From: Armatimonadota bacterium | GTDB taxonomy: Bacteria > Armatimonadota > Fimbriimonadia > Fimbriimonadales > Fimbriimonadaceae | Assembly (NCBI GenBank): GCA_022563855.1 | Contig: JADFMN010000003.1 | Span: 1-64,000, forward strand | Direction: 5' to 3' | DNA: 64,000 nucleotides | Position numbers and translations under genes: made by a program | The notes under the pieces: generated by a model | The model's input: only the letters and a program-made list of their open reading frames with translations | Database searches by the model: none | What the model was told of the DNA's origin: nothing | In this document: positions 21,335 to 64,000 of the stretch, piece by piece | How positions within the stretch are numbered: position 1 is the first letter of the stretch | Layout: every line of letters starts with the position of its first letter

Positions 21335-22423
21335 GTGGATCCGTATCCTCGTACCTGGGTTGAAGTGGATTTGCCCGCGCTCGGTCGGAACTTGACCGTC
21401 GTGAGGGGCATCGTAGGTTCGGAGGTCAAGGTGGCCCTGGTGGCCAAGGCCGACGCCTACGGGCACGGCCTGGTCCCGGTGTGCAGGTACGCGCTTCGCT
21501 TCGGCGCTGATTACCTTGCAGTGGCCACCGTTCAAGAGGGCATAGCCCTGCGCGATGCAGGGATCGACGCGCCGATTCTGGTCCTCTCCCCCATGCTCCC
21601 AGTTGAGGCCGACCAGGCGGCGTTCTACGGCCTGGAGATCACGGTCGAAGGGCTCGAAATGAGCCAGGAGCTGAGCCGCGCGGCGCTGGAGTGCGGGCGA
21701 GACGTGAACCTTCACCTTAAGGTCGATACCGGACTATCGCGGTTCGGGTGCAAGCCGGAAGAGGCCGACGACGTGGCGGAGGCGATCACAGAGCTCCCGG
21801 GAGTAGATCTCATCGGCGTATCGCATCACTTTGCAACGGCGTCCGACCCGGACTCCGCAAAGCGCCAGATGCGACGGTTCCGCGATGCGATAGAAGCCTG
21901 CGAGCGAAACGGGATCACGTTTGCCATCCGACATGAGGCCAACTCGACTGCCACCGTGACCTACCCTGAGTCGCACCTCGACATGGTCCGCGTCGGAATG
22001 ATGGCGTACGGGTTCGGCGGGCATGCAGACATCGAGCCGGTGCTCAGTTGGTACAGCCGGATTTCGTCGCTGCGCGCGGTCGGACCGGGTGCGACACTCA
22101 GCTACGGTGAGACGTTTGCAGTTGAACGAGACATGCTTATCGCTACGGTCGGAGTCGGATACGGCGACGGTTACCCGCGGCGGTTGGACAGTAGCGCCTT
22201 CGTTTTGATTCGCGGCCAGCGCGCGCCGGTCGTGGGGGCCGTCTGCATGGATCAGGTGCTCGTGGACGTCACCAAAATCGAAGGCGCAGTACCGGGAGAC
22301 GTCGTCACGCTCATCGGCGACGGGGTCACCGCCGCGCAGCTCGCGGAGGCGGCGGGCACGATCTCGCACGAGATCGTAACGCGCATCATGTCCCGCGTCG
22401 CACGCCGGTATCTGTACGACTAG
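21335..22423 (+). CDS. alr: Alanine racemase
   Basis: A 362-residue PLP enzyme that interconverts L- and D-alanine for peptidoglycan. The PLP lysine is in VAKADAYGHG (K38), the catalytic Tyr in LSYGETF, and VDTGLSRFG, RHEANSTAT and VCMDQVLVDV fit the family. GTG 21335 is used because CAGAAT ends six bases upstream. Its last codons, encoding VARRYLYD, reappear at about 23560-23587 beyond the next gene, which marks an insertion between alr and serA. Confidence 0.92.
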   Translation: MDPYPRTWVEVDLPALGRNLTVVRGIVGSEVKVALVAKADAYGHGLVPVCRYALRFGADYLAVATVQEGIALRDAGIDAPILVLSPMLPVEADQAAFYGLEITVEGLEMSQELSRAALECGRDVNLHLKVDTGLSRFGCKPEEADDVAEAITELPGVDLIGVSHHFATASDPDSAKRQMRRFRDAIEACERNGITFAIRHEANSTATVTYPESHLDMVRVGMMAYGFGGHADIEPVLSWYSRISSLRAVGPGATLSYGETFAVERDMLIATVGVGYGDGYPRRLDSSAFVLIRGQRAPVVGAVCMDQVLVDVTKIEGAVPGDVVTLIGDGVTAAQLAEAAGTISHEIVTRIMSRVARRYLYD

Positions 22424-22562
22424 GTGCTGATGGCTGGCTCAGTTTCAGCAGTCCGGCTTGCTCAAACTGATGCACCGAGTAGCTAAGGTTGGCTGGGCGG
22501 CGGTTACGACCTGTAATCGAATCAACGAATCTTCTGCTGACCGTCGAGGCTGCTCGATCCGG

Positions 22563-23528
22563 TCACTTCCGCTTTAGTATCATGATCGGCGGGATGTTGC
22601 CTGCCGAGTCATGTGGGACGAGCGTTGTCCTATCCTCGGTTAGGCGCAGTTCCATAGTCAAGGCGTCGAGTTCCGTGGCGTCCATTAGAGCAGCCGCTTC
22701 CTCCGAAACGGACACTTTGAGAAAAACACTCGCTCCTTCCTCACTCACAGCCCACATTCCTTCCGGCGCGTCGTCTCCGAACCACCTGAAAGTCATGTCG
22801 TCCATAAGGTGCACGCCACCCGTCTCGAACTCGGAATCCTCTTTCATAATTTGCACGTCAGCCTCGCTCATCACCCCGCGCATGTCGTCCCAGCGTGCGT
22901 CCATATCGAACCACATTGACCACTCACCGACGAAGTCCGCAACCTCGCCGCTCGCCGCATAAGTGTACGGGTCGTCAGGCACCGGCGTCTCAGTTGCAAC
23001 GGTCCCAGGGCGCGTGTAGACGAGCTTGCCGACCTGCACCACCGTATCCGTCAGCGACTGCCCGTCTTCCGCAATTTTAAGGCTCATAACCGGTTCGGAA
23101 GGTCTTGGGGTGATCTCTTCGGTACTTCGTTCTTCACCAGTCACGGGCTGGACGCTCGTGGTTGTGCTCAACGGCCCTCCGCTCAGCTTCGAGACCGTGA
23201 TCGACTCGCGGTCCTCGCTCAGCTCCCAAGTTCCCTGGCTCATCGTGAAGGCGGGTATTCCGACAATTCCGAAAATTACGGTCCCGTCGGCGTTCAGCTT
23301 GAGGTGCCACACGATCATTGCAGCGTTTCGCCTCATGGTTCTTTCCAGCACTTCGCGGTCGCCTTCGGGGAACGTCTCGTGCATAGTGTCGAGATCCTCG
23401 TCGGTGATCACTGTATGGCCCTCCCACTTGCCCGTAAAGTCCGACATAGCCGCGACTGGCTCCGTTTCGTTCTTGCACGAGGCGGTCAGCAACGAGACGA
23501 CGACTAGGGAGAAAAAGAGTTCTCTCAA
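22563..23528 (-). CDS. Lipoprotein with two related domains, unknown function
   Basis: A 321-residue protein with a lipobox LLTASC at residues 13-18. Two halves look like an internal duplication: DFTGKWEGHTVITDEDLDT with ERTMRRNAAMIVWHLKLN and DGTVIFG, then DFVGEWSMWFDMD with the later MDDMTFRWFG. Each could be a small lipocalin-like or META-like barrel; that is inference. A TTG start with AAGGA just upstream is used. It is the only gene between the intact 3' end of alr and a displaced copy of that end, so it is probably an acquired cassette. Confidence 0.6.
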   Translation of the reverse strand: MRELFFSLVVVSLLTASCKNETEPVAAMSDFTGKWEGHTVITDEDLDTMHETFPEGDREVLERTMRRNAAMIVWHLKLNADGTVIFGIVGIPAFTMSQGTWELSEDRESITVSKLSGGPLSTTTSVQPVTGEERSTEEITPRPSEPVMSLKIAEDGQSLTDTVVQVGKLVYTRPGTVATETPVPDDPYTYAASGEVADFVGEWSMWFDMDARWDDMRGVMSEADVQIMKEDSEFETGGVHLMDDMTFRWFGDDAPEGMWAVSEEGASVFLKVSVSEEAAALMDATELDALTMELRLTEDRTTLVPHDSAGNIPPIMILKRK

Positions 23529-23559
23529 TTCCTTGCGCTCCTCCCTGAAGTATACGTCA

Positions 23560-23587
23560 CGTTGCGCGCAGGTACCTGTACGACTAG
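23560..23587 (+). pseudogene. alr: Displaced 3' end of alr
   Basis: The bases GTT GCG CGC AGG TAC CTG then TAC GAC TAG encode VARRYLYD and a stop, the same C-terminus as the intact alr gene. Five of these eight codons differ synonymously from the intact copy. Its TAG overlaps the stop of convergent serA, so this is probably the ancestral end of alr, with the intact copy's end brought in by the inserted DNA. Confidence 0.75.
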
Positions 23588-24792
23588 TTGGTCGAGATCG
23601 GCAGCACGCTCGCGTCGAAGATGTCGCTGTGCGTGCGGATTGTGACCAGTGCCTGTTCCGAGGGCGCCTTGTCCAGGGAGACGTGCGCGATGGCCGCCTT
23701 CGCCTTGCCCAGGATGACGTTCTCCATCTCTTGCACGTTCACCGAGTCGTCGCGCAACACGTCGAACACGTGCGCGAGCACGCCGACCTTGTCGAGGTGC
23801 CGCACGACGAGCAGGTGCGTCGCGATCTCGCCTCGCGTGACGTTCACCACGTTCGGAACGCCGCCGCTCGAGACGAACTCCTTTACGATCTGTACGACTT
23901 CATCGGCCACGGCCCCCTGCGCCTGCGCGGTGCTGGCGCCGATGTGGTGCGTGCAGTAGATTCCGGGGATATCCTTGATCTCGCCGTCGTAGCTCGCCTC
24001 GCCAGTCGTCGGCTCTCCCTCGATCACGTCGAGTCCGGCGACGATCTTGCCGGAGTTGACAGCCGCGATCAGGTCGTCCTGCACGACGACCTCCGCGCGG
24101 CTGGTGTTGATGAAGTAAGCCCCGTCCTTCATCGCGTCAAAGAAGCGCTTGTCGATCATCCTCGTCGTCTCCGAACGGAGCGCGACGTGCACCGAGACGA
24201 TGTCTGACTGTTGCGCCAACTCCTCGAGCGACTCCGCGCGACCGATGTTCAGACCGACTGCGGACTCCGGCGTCAAGAACCGGCTGAACCCCACGACGTT
24301 CATCCCGAACGCCTGCGCGCGCACGATCAGCTCTTGGGCCACGTTGCCCAGGCCGATGATGCCGAGCGTGCGACCGTACAGCCCCTTTCCTTTGCCGAAC
24401 CGCTTCTTGTTCCACTTTCCGGCTCGCAGCTCTGCGACGTTGTCGGGGATGAAGCGGTCGAGAGCGAGCATCAGCCCGAACGCCAGCTCGGCCACCGCGA
24501 TCGAGTTCTTGCCTGGGCAGTTCGCGACGTAAGTCCCACGCGTGCTGGCTGCCTCGACGTCAATGGTGTTATAGCCGGAGCCGGCGCGAATAATCAGCGA
24601 TAGGTTTGAGCCGTCCATAACGTTCTCGGGAACCCTCGTAGAGCGCACGATCAGGATTTCAGCCTGCGTCTCTTTCAGAGCATCGGCGAGAGCCCTTTCC
24701 TTCAGATCGGGATTGCTGACAACCTCGTACCCGAGGTCGCTGAGCCCGTCGAGGGCGCTCTGTTCGAGCTTGTCGGCGACTAGAACTTTCAT
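23584..24792 (-). CDS. serA: D-3-phosphoglycerate dehydrogenase
   Basis: A 402-residue 2-hydroxyacid dehydrogenase, the first enzyme of serine synthesis. It has the Rossmann loop LGIIGLGNVAQ, the catalytic Arg in FINTSRAEVV, the Glu in GLDVIEGEP and the His in CTHHIGAST. The last 75 residues form an ACT domain (VGVLAHVFDVLRDDSVNVQ), suggesting serine feedback. There is no intervening ASB domain. TAAACT lies eight bases before the ATG. Note VALRSETTRM where most relatives have VPLTPET, a small change beside the active site. Confidence 0.88.
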   Translation of the reverse strand: MKVLVADKLEQSALDGLSDLGYEVVSNPDLKERALADALKETQAEILIVRSTRVPENVMDGSNLSLIIRAGSGYNTIDVEAASTRGTYVANCPGKNSIAVAELAFGLMLALDRFIPDNVAELRAGKWNKKRFGKGKGLYGRTLGIIGLGNVAQELIVRAQAFGMNVVGFSRFLTPESAVGLNIGRAESLEELAQQSDIVSVHVALRSETTRMIDKRFFDAMKDGAYFINTSRAEVVVQDDLIAAVNSGKIVAGLDVIEGEPTTGEASYDGEIKDIPGIYCTHHIGASTAQAQGAVADEVVQIVKEFVSSGGVPNVVNVTRGEIATHLLVVRHLDKVGVLAHVFDVLRDDSVNVQEMENVILGKAKAAIAHVSLDKAPSEQALVTIRTHSDIFDASVLPISTN

Positions 24793-41847: not shown

Positions 41848-42738
41848 ATGTCAAAACGATCTTTTCGCTTCGACCGAAGACAGTTCCTCACCGCGACCGG
41901 CGGGATTGCGCTCGCAATGACAGTGTCGCCAAAGATGCTTACAGCGATCGCGCCCCGGCGACGCGCGGGCGCTCTGCGCACCATCACCTACAACGTCCTC
42001 GCCTGTCGCGGGTACCCATCGACTGACGAAAACAGGGCGGTGCTGCGCGAAGCGCGCAAGCAGATGCCGGCCCGCATGGCGCTGGAGCTTGCGCTCTACG
42101 AACCGGACATCGTCACGTTCCAAGAGTCTCCCGCCGAGTCCGTCTCCGCCGAGATCGCGGACCGTATGGGGATGAACTACACGTACTTTCCCGGCGGCTA
42201 TCCGGGGACAGTGATCACGCGGTTCGAGATTACGGAATCGACCAACAAGCCGTTGGCTGCAGGGGTGGACGCTGACGACGTCAAGGGTCTGTTCACGCGC
42301 CACTGGGGCCGCGCTGTTTTGAAGACCGACGACGGCGACCTCGTTATTTACAGCGCGCACCTGCACCCCGGCAACGTGGAGACCCGCGGAAAGGAGGTCG
42401 CGCAGATGCTCGCCGCGATGTCGGCAGACATCGAGTCGGGCCGCGACATGATCCTGCAGGGAGATCTGAACCACCTGCCGGACGGACCGGAATACGGGCG
42501 ATGGGTCTACGCGGGACTTGTGGATTCGATTGCGACGAAAGGCGTTGGCGACAACCGTTTCAGCATCAACAGCATCGCGCCGACGCGGTATATCGACTAC
42601 ATCTGGACGCACGGCCCGCTCGCCGACCGCCTCACCGAGTGCCGCGTGCTGTTCGAGGGCGGCTTCCGCACCAACCCCGACGACCCGAAGTCGTTCGCGC
42701 TCAGCGACCACATCCCTGTGCTGGCTGTGTTCGAGTAG
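41848..42738 (+). CDS. Tat-exported EEP family hydrolase
   Basis: A 296-residue endonuclease/exonuclease/phosphatase-fold protein with a Tat leader (FDRRQFLTATGGIALAM). The motifs are TITYNVLACRG, VTFQESPAES, IYSAHLHPGN, LQGDLNHLPDG, RYIDYIWTHGP and LSDHIPVLAVFE. It follows the DUF1501 gene and may belong to the same unit. It is not close to the EEP protein at the left end of the window. A displaced copy of its last 67 codons lies at 43578-43779, beyond an inserted lipoprotein gene. Confidence 0.88.
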   Translation: MSKRSFRFDRRQFLTATGGIALAMTVSPKMLTAIAPRRRAGALRTITYNVLACRGYPSTDENRAVLREARKQMPARMALELALYEPDIVTFQESPAESVSAEIADRMGMNYTYFPGGYPGTVITRFEITESTNKPLAAGVDADDVKGLFTRHWGRAVLKTDDGDLVIYSAHLHPGNVETRGKEVAQMLAAMSADIESGRDMILQGDLNHLPDGPEYGRWVYAGLVDSIATKGVGDNRFSINSIAPTRYIDYIWTHGPLADRLTECRVLFEGGFRTNPDDPKSFALSDHIPVLAVFE

Positions 42739-42769: not shown

Positions 42770-43459
42770 TCACTCTTCGTCAATCCCAAGAACTATGTCA
42801 ACGGTGAACACCTTCTGCTCCCCATCTTCTTCGATGAAGTCAAACAGAATGCTTGTGTCGTCAATCGCAATGACGAAAAACGGCTCCTCGATGCTTTCGT
42901 ATGGAATTATCGTCCAGTAGTATTGCAGTTCATTCGCGTTTGCTTTCCTAACGTGTATTGGAAATTTGGGTTTGAATTCGGGCAGCAAGCGAAACGCGTC
43001 CAAATACAACTGAAAAAGATCCCAAAACTCTTCCTGCTGTGCATCGGTCTTGAATACTCTGCCGTCAAGGCTCTGCACCTCTCCGCTCGCTAGATTCGGA
43101 ATCACGAAAGTAGCGGGCATGGCGTCCTGCAACTCCTTTGGCGCCGTGTCCTTTAAGGCGTTCCACAGGCCTGGGCCGCATATAATGGCTTTCGGGCTTT
43201 TCTTCCTGAGTTCCTCGGCTGGACGAACCTCGTCAACAAGGCTTTGCAGAAAATCGAACGCCTTACTGTTGTCCTCTGCCGATGCCTCGGTGTATTTAAC
43301 GCCTGGAGGGATTTCTATTTCACCACTTTGCCAGTTCGAGGCTTCAGGTTCATCACCCTGTTGGTTCGAGGCTTCCGCCTCATTCTTGGACCGACTCGAA
43401 CATCCGGCAAGTATGCACAGAACAGCTATGCCGCACCAGACTCCTTTGCGAAACAGCAT
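42770..43459 (-). CDS. Lipoprotein of unknown function (cargo of the EEP slot)
   Basis: The protein is 229 residues from ATG 43459 (MLFRKGVWCG), chosen because a lipobox ILAGCSS follows; the longer in-frame start adds 28 residues without a signal. After a low-complexity linker with two copies of an EASN-Q-GE motif, the mature domain is mixed alpha/beta (AFDFLQSLVDEV, FWDLFQLYLDAF, YYWTIIPYESIEEPFFVIAIDD). I do not recognise it. It is opposite in direction to its neighbours and lies between the EEP gene and the displaced EEP 3' end. Confidence 0.6.
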   Translation of the reverse strand: MLFRKGVWCGIAVLCILAGCSSRSKNEAEASNQQGDEPEASNWQSGEIEIPPGVKYTEASAEDNSKAFDFLQSLVDEVRPAEELRKKSPKAIICGPGLWNALKDTAPKELQDAMPATFVIPNLASGEVQSLDGRVFKTDAQQEEFWDLFQLYLDAFRLLPEFKPKFPIHVRKANANELQYYWTIIPYESIEEPFFVIAIDDTSILFDFIEEDGEQKVFTVDIVLGIDEE

Positions 43460-43577
43460 GATCCTCGCCGACGAAGTTACCTCACTGGCATCTGCGAAAG
43501 TGGCTTCCACATGTTTCGCGGCTTCTGCAATCTTTGGCGGCATGGCTACCCATCGCGTTTTGTCCTTCCACCGCTAG

Positions 43578-43779
43578 TCGAAGGGCACCGGCGGCGATCT
43601 CACCATTCCCAGCACCGAGCCGCGAGTGAGGATCGACTACGTCTGGGCGCATGGCCCAGCTCGCCGACCGCCTCACCGAGTGCCGCGTGCTGTTCGAAGG
43701 TGCATTCCGCACTAACCCCGACGACCCGAAGTCGTTCGCGCTCAGTGACCACATCCCGGTGCTCGCGGTGTTCGAGTAA
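43578..43779 (+). pseudogene. Displaced 3' end of the EEP gene (one frameshift)
   Basis: In frame it reads KGTGGDLTIPSTEPRVR then IDYVWAHGP. After one extra base near 43657 it continues as LADRLTECRVLFEGAF, RTNPDDPKSFALSDHIPV, LAVFE and a stop. The last 39 residues differ from the intact gene at one position, while several codons differ synonymously. No start or 5' part exists. Confidence 0.85.
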
Positions 43780-59184: not shown

Positions 59185-59232
59185 CCTACTTCTTCTTCGT
59201 GAACCGCCGTCGCTTGGTCGATTCCGTTGCAG
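59185..59232 (-). pseudogene. topA: Displaced 3' end of topA
   Basis: On the minus strand the DNA encodes TKRRRFTKKK and a stop, exactly the C-terminus of the intact topA gene, with three synonymous differences over the ten codons. Weaker similarity extends a few codons upstream. It lies in the same orientation as topA, 2.78 kb away, with the kinase-HD gene between. Confidence 0.85.
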
Positions 59233-59322
59233 TCAGTTCTCTCCCGAAAGTTGATTCAGCACCATTGAGAACTTAGAATCGTGTCACGCTGACTCCTCGA
59301 TGGCCATCGAGGCAGAAAAGAC
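59233..59322. other. Short spacer at the slot edge
   Basis: Between the topA remnant and the end of the kinase-HD gene I see no gene and no clear terminator. Confidence 0.4.
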
Positions 59323-61740
59323 CTATCGTCTCTTAGTTGTAGGCAGCATCTTTAGAATGTCATTCTGGACTGTTGCGAACTTGCCAGTGGACATAAGATC
59401 GTCTCGCACCTTCTGAGGTACGAATACGCGTATCTTCTTGACCAACGACTGAAAATTCTCGAACACAGACTTGGACACTCCAGAAATACGGCTGAGAGGT
59501 TCGATGCTGTATCCCTGCGCACTTCCAAGCATCTTGGTGCGCACAAATATTTCCCTACTTGCATCTTCTTCTGGATCAATGCGGGGAATGTCTAGTAAGA
59601 CACAACTAGCATGATCGATAGTTGCGATGCCAGATTCGCTGATGATGTTCGTAATTCTTAGTCGTAGCGCCTCGACGCCTGCAGAATCCAATCCTATAAG
59701 GTGTTTATATGTAATCTTGTACTTGCCCCTGTCTGTGATCTCGATCAAGCGACGGTAATGACCTCGCCCTCCACTTAGCAGACTCACTAGCGGATTGGAC
59801 TCAGCCGGAAAATTGATTTCAAACTCTAGTGACAGCAGGGCAACGGCCTCGTAATCAGTCATGAACATACTTCGGTAGACATATTCTTTAAAACCAAATC
59901 CTGTCGCATCAATAAACAGCTTGCGAGCAACGTACTTGATCATAGCCATCATCGCTCGATTAGCATGGTGCCAATACACTCTCGCGTACATGTGGTATCG
60001 GGCAATCACAATGCTTTCTGCCGCCATAATTGCTTTCTCAGCTACTCCGATCTGCGCATTACGATCGCCCTGCTCGGGGATGGCAATCAGTCCATCAAGC
60101 AACGCGTCCAAATCAACTCCGGATCCATAACCAACGCCAGTGAAAAGGCTATCGGACGTCAGATATGCAACCTTGTCTGCATCGATTGGTCCATCAATAA
60201 TGGAAGTTTGCAAGTGTGCAACCTCCGATGTCCCCTCTCCTTCTATGAGCGAAACTACTTGCCTATAATCCAGTCCCCAAGCTGGTTCATCAAGTATGTC
60301 GGCCAGCGACTTGTCAATGTTTTGCTCACTGCCATCGGTAGCTGCAGTTGTGCCCTTGAAGTTCAGGAAATAGCGGGACATTCTGCTATGGAATTCGGGC
60401 GGACGTCCCTTGAACAAGTTTTCCGTAGCCTCGCGAGGAGTACAGAGGTCATCTAGTGCATGGGCGAGCGGGTAGTGCCCAATATCGTGAAGAAGGGCCG
60501 ACGCGAGAAGTAGAGAGTGATCCTTTGGGAACATCAATATCCTTGCTGTAGGATCTGAGATAAGGGCTCGAACATATTGTTTGACGACAGAGAAAGTTGC
60601 TAGAGAGTGGGCAAATCTAGAGTGCTTAGCATCTGGAAACACACGCTCTACAAGATTGAGCTGATTCTGAAACCGTAATCGCTGAAACATAGGGTGGTCG
60701 ACAAGTGCCTGAGCCCTGCTGGACAGCGATACACGGTGTGTTGCGAGATTGACTTTTTGCTCTGAGCGCTCAACTCGAAATTCAGGCACTCCAAGTGGTT
60801 CGGTATATGACGCTGACAGTTTCTCAAAGTCCAGCAGAGCCTGAGAAGCTGATCGGTAGCAATGTGGATCGTTTCGATCACTCACTAGCAAGCGACGTAT
60901 AAAGGATTTCATGAGGTGCAGATCACTTGCAGTTAGCTCAGACTTGATATTTGGCTTAATGTGTTCGAGGAGCTCGTCAAAATCACGATCGGATTTCGCT
61001 GGAATTGTCTTTTGCGAAACCAATTCACAGAATGTAGTGCCTAGGCAGTATAGGTCAAGATGTGGTAAAAATTCTGAGAGCAATGCTCGTGAGACTTTCT
61101 TTCCGATGAGTTCACGTGCGTAATTTGGTGCATACCTATGTGAGCCGAAGAGAGGCGTATCTGCAAGGAACTCAATTGTGGCAGAATCACCTGTTTTGAA
61201 GGAAAGGGGTTTAGCGCATCCGAGATCCGCAATTCTTACCTCTAGTTCCCCATTCGGCAAGCGCAAGTAAAGAAGATTCGAGGGCTTAATATCGCAGTGC
61301 AGAATCTCTTGTGAGTGAAGATACTCTAGACCCGTGAGAACTTGACGAAAGCAATCGATGATTTCAGTCCCATCAGAGATAGACCTGAAAAGTGCGGACA
61401 ATGTTGGTTCGTCGCCATCAGCCGAGGGCATCAGTTCCATCACGTAGAATGGACGGATCTTGCCTGCATGCTCGACTTCTCCCGCGTCGACAATCTTCAC
61501 TACATTGCGATGTGTGATTGAAGATAGCAAGCGTATTTCGTTCTCGAACGTTCTATCAAAGGTCTTCGCGCGTGGGCCGCGAGCATATAGTGGATGCGAA
61601 AGTTTGAGTGCCCGTCGAGCTCCTAGGCTGAGCTGTTCAACCTCGTACAGTTTAGCTGCACCACCATGAGAGATGGATGCTACCACTCGATACTTCTGAT
61701 CTACGATGTCGCCGTCGGTGATTGCTTTCGCGCTCGGCAT
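59323..61740 (-). CDS. Ser/Thr protein kinase fused to a SAMHD1-like HD phosphohydrolase
   Basis: An 805-residue protein. Residues 16-310 are a Hanks-type kinase: Gly-loop SHGGAAKLYEV, Lys46 in RALKLS, catalytic loop LHCDIKPSNLL (Asp150, Cys in place of the usual Arg), DLG (172-174) in place of DFG and SHRYAPNYARE for the APE region. Residues 340-805 match COG1078 HD proteins: HPMFQRLRFQNQL, HSRFAHSLATF (H378), LLHDIGHYPLAHAL (H418, D419) and the later Asp in PIDADKVAYL. The HD part may hydrolyse dNTPs. Base composition is clearly AT-richer than its neighbours. TATCAT lies ten bases upstream. Confidence 0.88.
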   Translation of the reverse strand: MPSAKAITDGDIVDQKYRVVASISHGGAAKLYEVEQLSLGARRALKLSHPLYARGPRAKTFDRTFENEIRLLSSITHRNVVKIVDAGEVEHAGKIRPFYVMELMPSADGDEPTLSALFRSISDGTEIIDCFRQVLTGLEYLHSQEILHCDIKPSNLLYLRLPNGELEVRIADLGCAKPLSFKTGDSATIEFLADTPLFGSHRYAPNYARELIGKKVSRALLSEFLPHLDLYCLGTTFCELVSQKTIPAKSDRDFDELLEHIKPNIKSELTASDLHLMKSFIRRLLVSDRNDPHCYRSASQALLDFEKLSASYTEPLGVPEFRVERSEQKVNLATHRVSLSSRAQALVDHPMFQRLRFQNQLNLVERVFPDAKHSRFAHSLATFSVVKQYVRALISDPTARILMFPKDHSLLLASALLHDIGHYPLAHALDDLCTPREATENLFKGRPPEFHSRMSRYFLNFKGTTAATDGSEQNIDKSLADILDEPAWGLDYRQVVSLIEGEGTSEVAHLQTSIIDGPIDADKVAYLTSDSLFTGVGYGSGVDLDALLDGLIAIPEQGDRNAQIGVAEKAIMAAESIVIARYHMYARVYWHHANRAMMAMIKYVARKLFIDATGFGFKEYVYRSMFMTDYEAVALLSLEFEINFPAESNPLVSLLSGGRGHYRRLIEITDRGKYKITYKHLIGLDSAGVEALRLRITNIISESGIATIDHASCVLLDIPRIDPEEDASREIFVRTKMLGSAQGYSIEPLSRISGVSKSVFENFQSLVKKIRVFVPQKVRDDLMSTGKFATVQNDILKMLPTTKRR

Positions 61741-61963
61741 GGTCGATTGAATGATACCTTCCTACACGGTTCACTTTCTTCCTGCCGTTACTCGCCTTGC
61801 GCGATGCGCCTGAAACGGTACTCAAGCATAATTGGACTGTGGGATCTTATTCTGGCTGTTTCTGATTAACAGTTGTCTGGTACGAATACACATGTATGAC
61901 TATGCATATGCGGCTGTTTGAATGTCCGATCTGAACCCCGCTCCATAGTGCAAATATCTGTTG
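61741..61963. other. AT-rich spacer at the slot edge
   Basis: No coding frame with protein-like composition is seen. The AT-rich composition matches the kinase-HD gene and changes abruptly to GC-rich at the topA stop, so this is probably part of the acquired DNA. Confidence 0.5.
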
Positions 61964-61964
61964 C

Positions 61965-64000
61965 CTACTTTTTCTTCGTGAACCGTCGGCGCTTGGTCGG
62001 ACCCTTGGCAGCCTTCGCTTTGACCAGCTCGACCGCCTTTTCCGGCGTCAAGTCAGCAGGGTCGAGCCCCTTGGGGAGGGTCGCGTTGACCTTGCCGTTC
62101 TTCACGTAAGGCCCGTACCGCCCGCTCAGCAGTTGCACCGGCCCTTCGAGCCCTTCAAGCTCGCCGAAGTCCTTGATGATCTCCGGGCCAGAGCGCGCCT
62201 TCTTTGCGTTCACCAAGAACACGACCGCCTCATCGACTGTGACAGAAGCGCCCTTGCGCCAGTCGCCGACGTTCGCCTTCTTGTCGCCGCAGATCAGATA
62301 CGGCCCAAACTTGCCGAGCGCGACGGAGATCATGTCGCCGCTCTCGGGGTGCGGGCCGATCTCGCGCGGGTAGCTGAGGAGGATCGCCAGCTCCTTGTCC
62401 CCGATCTCTGCCGGCTTCAGCTCCTTCGGGATCGTGATACGCTTCGGCTTCTTTCCGCTCTTCCTCTCAGCCTCGGTCTGCTCGACCTCCAGATAGTCGC
62501 CGAACCGACCTGTCTTGTGGAGCACGCACTGCCCCGTCGCGGGGTCTTCGCCCAGAGCCTGACCGCCCGCCTTCTTCTGCGCCAGAAGTTCGAGCGCTAT
62601 CTCCAGCGTCAACTCCGCCGGCGGCAAATCGCCAGGGACGCTGGCCGTGTTGCCGGGGCCGCCCTCCCCTCGCTGGAGGAAAGGACCGTTGCGGCCAATT
62701 CGAACGATGATGTTTTCGCCGACGGCGATCGCAGGGAACGGAATATCTTTGCTCAAATGCGTGACCTGCGGCTCGATCCCAGGATGTTCATCAGTGCCGG
62801 TATAGAACTCTCGCAGATAGCCAACGTGGTCTAGGTTGCCGTTAGCAATCTCATCAAGCTGTTCTTCGAGCTGCGCCGTAAAGGTCGTATCGACCAGCTC
62901 CGTGAAGTTGTTCTCCAGAAGCTCCGTCACGGCGAACGCGGTGAACGTTGGCACTAGTTCTCGGCCTTTCTTGAAGATATATCCGCGGTCTTCGATGGTT
63001 CCGAGGATGCTCGCGTAGGTACTTGGCCGTCCGACGCCTTCTGACTCCAGCTCCTTGACGAGCGACGCCTCGGTGAACCGCGCGGGCGGTCGTGTTGCGT
63101 GCTCGGTCGCGCGGACTTCCTTTGCCGCCAGCTCTTGCCCCTTCTCGAGGGTGGGAAGGATGCGCTCCTTGTTGGCCAAGTCGGCGTCAGGGTCGTCTGC
63201 GCCCTCCACATACGCTTTCAGGAAACCCGGAAAGAGGATGCTCTTGCCGCTCGCAGCAAATACGAACTTCGTGCCGTTGCTCGAGACCGCGATAGAGACT
63301 CTTGTACGCTCAACCTCTGCAGGCTTCATCTGACAGGCGATCGTTCTTTTCCAGATCAAGTCGTACAGCTTGAACTGGTCCGCAGATAGAGAACTCCTTA
63401 CATCCTGCGGTCGACGGGCGAGATCCGAAGGGCGGATCGCCTCGTGAGCTTCCTGAGCGTTCTTAGACTTCGACTTGTACTGCTTCGGCTTGGCGGGAAC
63501 GTGCTCAGCGCCGTACAGGTCGCCAATCACCGTGCGTGCCTGCTTGATCGCTCGATCTGCGAGCGTGAGGCTGTCGGTACGCATATACGTGATCAAACCG
63601 ACCCGTTCGCCGCTGCCGAGGTCGATGCCTTCGTACAGTTGTTGGGCGATTCTCATCGTTCGACGGGCCGTGTAGCCGAGCTTTCGGTTTGCCTCTTGTT
63701 GCAGCGTCGAGGTCATGAACGGCGGTGGAGGGTTCTCCCTGCCCGGCTTCGCATCGATATCTGACACGGTCCAAGGCGAACTTTCGGCGACGGCAGCTTG
63801 GAACGACTGTGCCTCGTTCGCCATGAGCCAGCGAACTTTGTCAGATGAGAGCTGTCCCCGGCTGTCGAAATGCTCGCCCTCCGCGACCCTGGCGTCGTCG
63901 ACGCTGCGCAGTCGCGCGACGAACGATTGCCCGTTTGTCACAAGGGTCGCTTCAACCCCCGAGTACTCGGCGATGACGAACTGCTTGCGCTCTCTTTCAC
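61965..64000 (-). CDS. topA: DNA topoisomerase I (N-terminus beyond right edge)
   Basis: The visible 678 or so codons cover most of a type IA topoisomerase, which relaxes negative supercoils. The catalytic Tyr is in VGLITYMRTDS; EAHEAIRPSD, TRPPARFTEASLVKELE and GIGRPST-like GVGRPSTYASI fit the family. The C-terminal part has several GRYGPYV/GKFGPYL repeat modules replacing zinc fingers, and a basic tail. The frame stays open to 64000. Its 3' end is duplicated at 59185. Confidence 0.93.
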   Translation of the reverse strand, partial: ERERKQFVIAEYSGVEATLVTNGQSFVARLRSVDDARVAEGEHFDSRGQLSSDKVRWLMANEAQSFQAAVAESSPWTVSDIDAKPGRENPPPPFMTSTLQQEANRKLGYTARRTMRIAQQLYEGIDLGSGERVGLITYMRTDSLTLADRAIKQARTVIGDLYGAEHVPAKPKQYKSKSKNAQEAHEAIRPSDLARRPQDVRSSLSADQFKLYDLIWKRTIACQMKPAEVERTRVSIAVSSNGTKFVFAASGKSILFPGFLKAYVEGADDPDADLANKERILPTLEKGQELAAKEVRATEHATRPPARFTEASLVKELESEGVGRPSTYASILGTIEDRGYIFKKGRELVPTFTAFAVTELLENNFTELVDTTFTAQLEEQLDEIANGNLDHVGYLREFYTGTDEHPGIEPQVTHLSKDIPFPAIAVGENIIVRIGRNGPFLQRGEGGPGNTASVPGDLPPAELTLEIALELLAQKKAGGQALGEDPATGQCVLHKTGRFGDYLEVEQTEAERKSGKKPKRITIPKELKPAEIGDKELAILLSYPREIGPHPESGDMISVALGKFGPYLICGDKKANVGDWRKGASVTVDEAVVFLVNAKKARSGPEIIKDFGELEGLEGPVQLLSGRYGPYVKNGKVNATLPKGLDPADLTPEKAVELVKAKAAKGPTKRRRFTKKK

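Follow-up and report, generated by a model that had tools for sequence, protein, structure and literature searches.

For Rhs genes, a model has been proposed in which a circle with a conserved part and a new tip integrates by single crossover; the incoming DNA replaces the end of the gene and shunts the old end downstream, and repeats of the event give a series (Jackson et al. 2009, PMC2935791). In the T6SS effector-immunity arrays of Vibrio cholerae, for which one-sided homology and an illegitimate join have been proposed, old parts likewise stay downstream (PMC5361080). Homology-facilitated illegitimate recombination, a laboratory process, requires only one end of the incoming DNA to be homologous, the other end being joined illegitimately (PMC3240628). 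A further study reports direct repeats on both sides of 10-18% of the small variable segments in other species (PMC2884548).

Displaced gene ends were found in the genome analysed here, both in a window of 64,000 nt (the whole stretch of DNA that was analysed around alr) and outside it. Rhs loci differ in that a polymorphic toxin gene is affected and the new end is a different protein tip (PMC2935791), whereas here housekeeping genes carry a synonymous end and the novelty is the cargo gene behind that end. The T6SS arrays are toxin-immunity loci at fixed places (PMC5361080), whereas the ends reported here are scattered over unrelated core genes. The gene alr is no rhs with a variable C-terminal tip, both of its ends being identical in protein.

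In the minimal mobile elements of Neisseria, a pair of conserved genes likewise encloses varied cargo that has no mobility gene. Their exchange depends on homology at either side, and they are not known to be marked by displaced gene ends. Such an element would show alternative cargo at one pair of flanking genes in different strains; at alr and serA, relatives have the empty site. Insertion with long target duplication, which Nobusato et al. reportedly described in 2000, similarly places an inserted gene between direct repeats of host sequence. In that process the copies should be born identical, whereas the copies found here show divergence of the coding type. No published account of displaced housekeeping gene ends was found in a search that was thin on subscription literature.

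The alr locus and its counterparts in relatives

The last nine codons of alr (22397-22423) were found again at 23561-23587, in the same direction and 1164 nt downstream (Table 1). The direct repeat (22396-22426 versus 23560-23590) agrees at 84% over 31 nt; 24 positions of the 28-nt repeat match, the four base differences (GTC/GTT, GCA/GCG, CGG/AGG and TAT/TAC) are all synonymous, and CTGTACGACTAG is identical in both copies. The initial annotation, which had VARRYLYD plus stop encoded twice with synonymous codon changes around an identical core, is borne out by this alignment, its coordinates being correct to within 1-2 nt. The serA stop codon (23584-23586) overlaps the displaced alr stop TAG (23585-23587) through the palindrome CTAG, again as annotated. 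The two alr ends are separated by 1136 nt (22424-23559). The gene reads unbroken into the homologous end adjoining the cargo, giving one homologous border, and the junction between cargo and tail at 23559/23560 is abrupt.

Table 1. Features of the alr locus and further loci with displaced gene ends
Feature	Position	Strand	Basis or remark
alr (alanine racemase), anchor gene	21335-22423	+	Pfam Ala_racemase_N and Ala_racemase_C; intact
Gene-attached alr end, first repeat copy, probably the newcomer	22396-22423	+	Direction of displacement judged from relatives' loci
Spacer from alr stop to cargo gene	22424-22562		About 10-25 nt at right end resemble 3' flank of paralogues
Cargo gene: 321-aa probable lipoprotein, start TTG, two similar halves	22563-23528	-	No Pfam match
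GTATAC element upstream of cargo gene, possible -10 box	23549-23559	-	Common to both paralogues
Displaced, probably native alr end (VARRYLYD and stop)	23560-23587	+	Repeat alignment; relatives' loci
serA (D-3-phosphoglycerate dehydrogenase-like), convergent neighbour	23584-24792	-	Pfam; convergent in 16/53 relatives' loci
Exo_endo_phos slot	41848-43779		Gene 41848-42738; last at least 124 nt recur at 43779
topA slot	59186-64000 (window)		topA (C3:61965-64577) runs past the window
C5:78505 series	C5:73880-80424		One gene end, two displaced copies in series

A second alr gene as donor of the additional end was ruled out, alr being single in this genome. A chance repeat was likewise rejected. When contig C3 was scanned for gene tails whose last 7 or more residues recur identically no further than 8 kb away, nine matches were obtained, not all of them tail slots, versus 0-1 per run in shifted controls; these low controls and the reproduction of the ancestral stop overlap exclude a chance copy for practical purposes, and genes paired with wrong regions (see below) point the same way.

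The alr loci of family relatives (53, in two sets of 28 and 25) were compared. In 16 of them serA lies convergent directly behind alr, with nothing between and a gap of -4 to 55 nt, and half of these (8/16) show the exact 4-nt stop overlap seen at 23585-23587. The sole relative of the same genus (G001) is among the 16, with a gap of 35 nt. In the remaining 37 loci, serA has the same direction as alr in one, and 36 have no serA in the available DNA, a figure that includes loci cut by a contig end or lacking the alr C-terminus. The lipoprotein gene is missing from all 53. These results agree with the annotated view that alr and serA originally met tail to tail and that the intervening lipoprotein gene is cargo; the counter-case that had been named, a lipoprotein gene between alr and serA without a copy of the alr end, occurs at none of the 53 loci. 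Because the junction of alr and serA is empty in those 16 loci and the lipoprotein gene occurs in none of the 53, the end beside serA (23560-23587) is taken, from its position, as probably native, and 22424-23559 as the probable cargo.

The cargo protein has no Pfam match at E 0.001, and its paralogues gave weak matches only in a search up to E 1. Two paralogues with 56-57% amino-acid identity are located 4 kb apart on contig C1. Clear family members were found in one of 85 family genomes, namely this one, with weak partial matches in two others; relative G016 gave one weak match (E 3e-4). In favour of its annotation as a lipoprotein, the protein has a hydrophobic N-terminal stretch and a Cys18 common to the three paralogues, but its lipobox is non-canonical. 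The two-domain description is faintly suggested by an alignment of the halves of the protein with each other (27% identity, E = 0.003). Structure prediction from three sequences was poor (mean pLDDT 64, pTM 0.50) and did not identify a fold, the closest PDB entry having E 1.5e-3 and TM 0.14. As a guess, the cargo may be a lipoprotein of the cell surface or periplasm in which a beta-rich domain is repeated.

Conservation of the cargo unit extends up to the GTATAC element and stops exactly at the junction with the displaced end. The spacer of about 130 nt on the other side, apart from the flank similarity given in Table 1, has no other significant match in the genome and was thus rejected as a piece of repeated sequence. 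Scans of the slot detected no sigma-70-type promoter, and terminator-like sites did not exceed the chance level; no recombinase was recognised in the insert, which holds a single gene without a Pfam match.

Dispersed repeats of about 40-140 nt (CCACCCCTTGAGCCGGGAGGGACAGGGGGA...) cluster around the two lipoprotein paralogues at C1:388-392 kb. The first paralogue (C1:388.5 kb) is bracketed by a 95-nt direct repeat with 97% identity; other copies of this repeat reach 93-96%, so the repeat is a dispersed one and the paralogue was left out of the slot count.

A series of displaced gene ends

Slots like that of alr recur elsewhere in the genome; the initial annotation included neither this series nor the probably native status of the end beside serA. 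A sample of 1.65 Mb (contig C3 whole, C1 1-520000, C2 1-360000, and C4 and C5 1-200000) yielded 13 accepted slot genes with 14 displaced ends. The genes are alr, topA, gyrA, pnp, those for an Exo_endo_phos protein, a TauE transporter, a pirin, a pyridine nucleotide-disulphide oxidoreductase and a PMT-family protein, plus four further genes; ten of the 13 were scanned against Pfam, and all but one of these gave a match. The repeats are 28-124 nt long (somewhat more at C3:42738 if an indel is allowed) and 364-4625 nt apart, and the similarity of the displaced ends stops at the stop codon or within 7 nt past it. Most inserts hold one gene, encoding a probable lipoprotein, another secreted protein, a PEP-CTERM protein, an alpha/beta hydrolase, a protein kinase or a PD40 protein, or contain nothing recognisable; two inserts of 287 nt have no large gene. 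No recombinase was found in the nine cargo proteins scanned besides the lipoprotein. The G+C content of the insert is below that of its flanks in 12/14 cases.

An automatic count under fixed criteria gave 16 tail copies downstream of their genes versus 2 upstream (1245 genes), a count that includes some weak rows and lacks C3:42738 and C1:400580. The same count gave one copy, of low complexity, in 585 genes of the two relatives that served as control genomes (G007 and G014, 800 kb), and one in 697 genes when genes were paired to wrong regions. In a histogram of matches by position in the gene, the last-5% bin with the copy downstream contained 25 matches versus 1-10 in the other downstream bins, and the first-5% bin with the copy upstream contained 8, a slight rise only.

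Rows were excluded for long forward extension, for dispersed or low-complexity repeats, as tandem paralogues or where the copy was lost on extension (C3:96282, C3:100984, C1:225968, C1:258617, C1:409974 twice, C1:494402, C2:339577 and G007:351849), and others as weak (C3:124157, C1:122584 and C1:188774). The slots at C3:42738 and C1:400580, missed by the simple gene caller or outside its list, were added. At C2:238264-240465 and C2:339577-341010 the tail copies precede a related copy of the next gene, and these two loci therefore look like tandem duplications that carried the end of the upstream gene; C2:238264 is still counted among the 13 slot genes. Copies of the 5' part of a gene were seen upstream of it at C3:323157-324218, C3:362127-362789, C1:246934-247491 and C5:62498-63454; they are rarer than tail copies and possibly represent the mirror event.

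Two further slots lie in the window, that of topA for the most part. The cargo of the Exo_endo_phos slot is a gene for 257 aa (42770-43543, minus strand) with a lipobox-like LAGCSS, and the tail copies there differ at 8 codons synonymously and at 2 nonsynonymously. The end of topA (TKRRRFTKKK) is copied 2779 nt downstream, beyond a kinase-HD gene of 805 aa (59326-61740, minus strand, 48% G+C). In relatives recG faces topA within 1.5 kb at 12/25 loci, and here it lies beyond the displaced end; the kinase cargo occurs at none of the 25 relatives' topA loci. The topA locus is thus a second slot with an empty site in relatives.

At C5:78505 one gene end is followed by two displaced copies, in the order 639-aa gene, PD40 protein gene, displaced tail, two genes, second displaced tail. 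Both tails are 53 nt long, and the three versions of the tail differ at 9-11 of 53 bases. A 762-aa product of the two-gene stretch is weakly similar to other proteins of the genome. This is apparently the pattern left by repeated insertion at one gene end. The displaced copy at C2:155501 has decayed, its stop codon being broken.

Divergence of the copies and origin of the displaced ends

Taken together, the 14 copies show synonymous differences at 78 codons and nonsynonymous ones at 37, with 25, 19 and 91 differences at codon positions 1, 2 and 3, after two tails had been trimmed by hand (C1:400580 from 38 to 30 nt and C5:106831 from 63 to 48 nt), which removed three nonsynonymous and two synonymous codons. 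The synonymous share of 0.68 exceeds the value of at most 0.42 expected if one copy had been free of selection after the insertion (p = 2.8e-8; p = 1.4e-9 if the nonsynonymous rate of the gene copy is 0.1). This expectation was calculated with transitions weighted by 2, and its unit is the codon rather than the event. Synonymous and nonsynonymous differences number 4/0 at alr, 3/0 at topA and C1:400580, 3/5 at gyrA, 6/6 at C2:155501 and 8/6 at C5:135120. For alr alone, four synonymous differences out of four have a probability of about 0.03 under simple decay, which is weak. The synonymous excess suggests that the copies diverged mostly while both were coding, and the divergence most simply would have occurred in different lineages before the copies met.

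With moderate confidence, we favour an origin in which DNA of a sister lineage, consisting of a gene end and its cargo, entered the resident gene end by recombination and pushed the old end aside, much as Rhs tips are displaced but at housekeeping genes. The published models outlined above fit such an origin. In an ancestor in which alr and serA stood tail to tail with overlapping stops, DNA with an alr 3' end and the lipoprotein gene would have been taken up and anchored by homology within alr. Its other end may then have joined illegitimately inside the native alr tail, by homology-facilitated illegitimate recombination (a laboratory process, whose part in these scars is our proposal; PMC3240628), or a small circle of alr end and cargo may have integrated by a single crossover in the tail. 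Either route would have pushed the native end 1164 nt off and left a 28-nt scar beside serA. The same event would have taken place at about a dozen other gene ends here, one of which was apparently hit two times in a row, and gene 3' ends would then be tolerated landing sites for single accessory genes. Because the incoming DNA would have brought a synonymous replacement end, alr would have stayed intact, its enzyme unchanged, and the insertion would have been tolerated; a bias to 3' ends would be expected, since insertion at a 5' end would separate the gene from its promoter. A DprA-family match was found in the genome; such matches are common in control organisms too and are no proof of competence.

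Some observations fit this origin less well. No donor genome or sister strain was found, and at some slots (gyrA and C2:155501) nonsynonymous differences equal or exceed synonymous ones. None of the displaced ends is long (28 to about 150 nt), yet no part of the gene should be closed to an illegitimate join; the proposed origin therefore needs an additional assumption, e.g. insert loss between long repeats. Short ends may reflect survival, since long direct repeats would recombine and lose the insert. A different, unlikely arrangement is that core-gene 3' ends of this lineage are reusable attachment sites at which single accessory genes, as circles of gene end and cargo, leave and enter by homologous recombination without an integrase; if true, this would amount to an integron-like, genome-wide exchange of secreted proteins at housekeeping gene ends.

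A chimera of the assembly, in which two co-occurring strains with alr-lipoprotein and alr-serA arrangements were joined and the second alr end is foreign and not in the molecule, would likewise produce synonymous differences at much the same level from slot to slot and account for short, k-mer-sized tails, and the assembly consists of 22 contigs with 3.27% contamination. Misjoins should, however, strike 5' ends equally, whereas the excess is confined to 3' ends, and the sampled contigs contain no N. Some copies have decayed, as the broken stop at C2:155501 shows, a chimera at C5:78505 would need three strains, and the boundary of the conserved cargo unit coincides exactly with the junction, all of which makes a misassembly improbable. 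Insertion with target duplication, by which the alr end would have been copied identically and diverged later, matches the geometry of a direct repeat at both insert borders and has reportedly been proposed for restriction-modification genes. We consider it quite unlikely: the displaced copy would be unselected, in conflict with the synonymous share given above, and the length of the repeat varies between slots.

Some phages carry substitute gene ends, at icd, and a family of site-specific elements that recognise gene 3' ends and bring substitute ends would account for the specificity in the position histogram and for the equal length of both displaced tails at C5:78505. With no recombinase in the alr cargo or the nine other scanned cargo proteins, unrelated genes as targets and no common junction motif apparent by eye, such elements are very unlikely. 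Retention of the displaced end because it is itself functional, either as upstream promoter DNA for the cargo gene or a tandem gene copy or in terminating serA, might be suggested by the conserved cargo unit, which stops at the GTATAC element adjoining the displaced copy, and by C2:238264 and C2:339577, where the tail stands before a related copy of the gene that follows. This too is very unlikely, as the lipoprotein paralogues have unrelated sequence at the position of the displaced end, the slot has neither a sigma-70-type promoter nor terminator-like sites beyond chance, and the synonymous excess would be left unexplained.

Taken alone, the alr locus is a modest case of gene gain, whereas the series of oriented scars is a new form of the known end displacement. 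How single accessory genes enter a chromosome without mobility genes has so far mostly been deduced from which genes are present. Displaced gene ends are scars with an orientation, which show the anchor gene and the older copy and indicate that the incoming DNA came probably from a relative. If the pattern holds, any genome could be searched for such scars, and events of one-sided recombination at the ends of genes could be counted.
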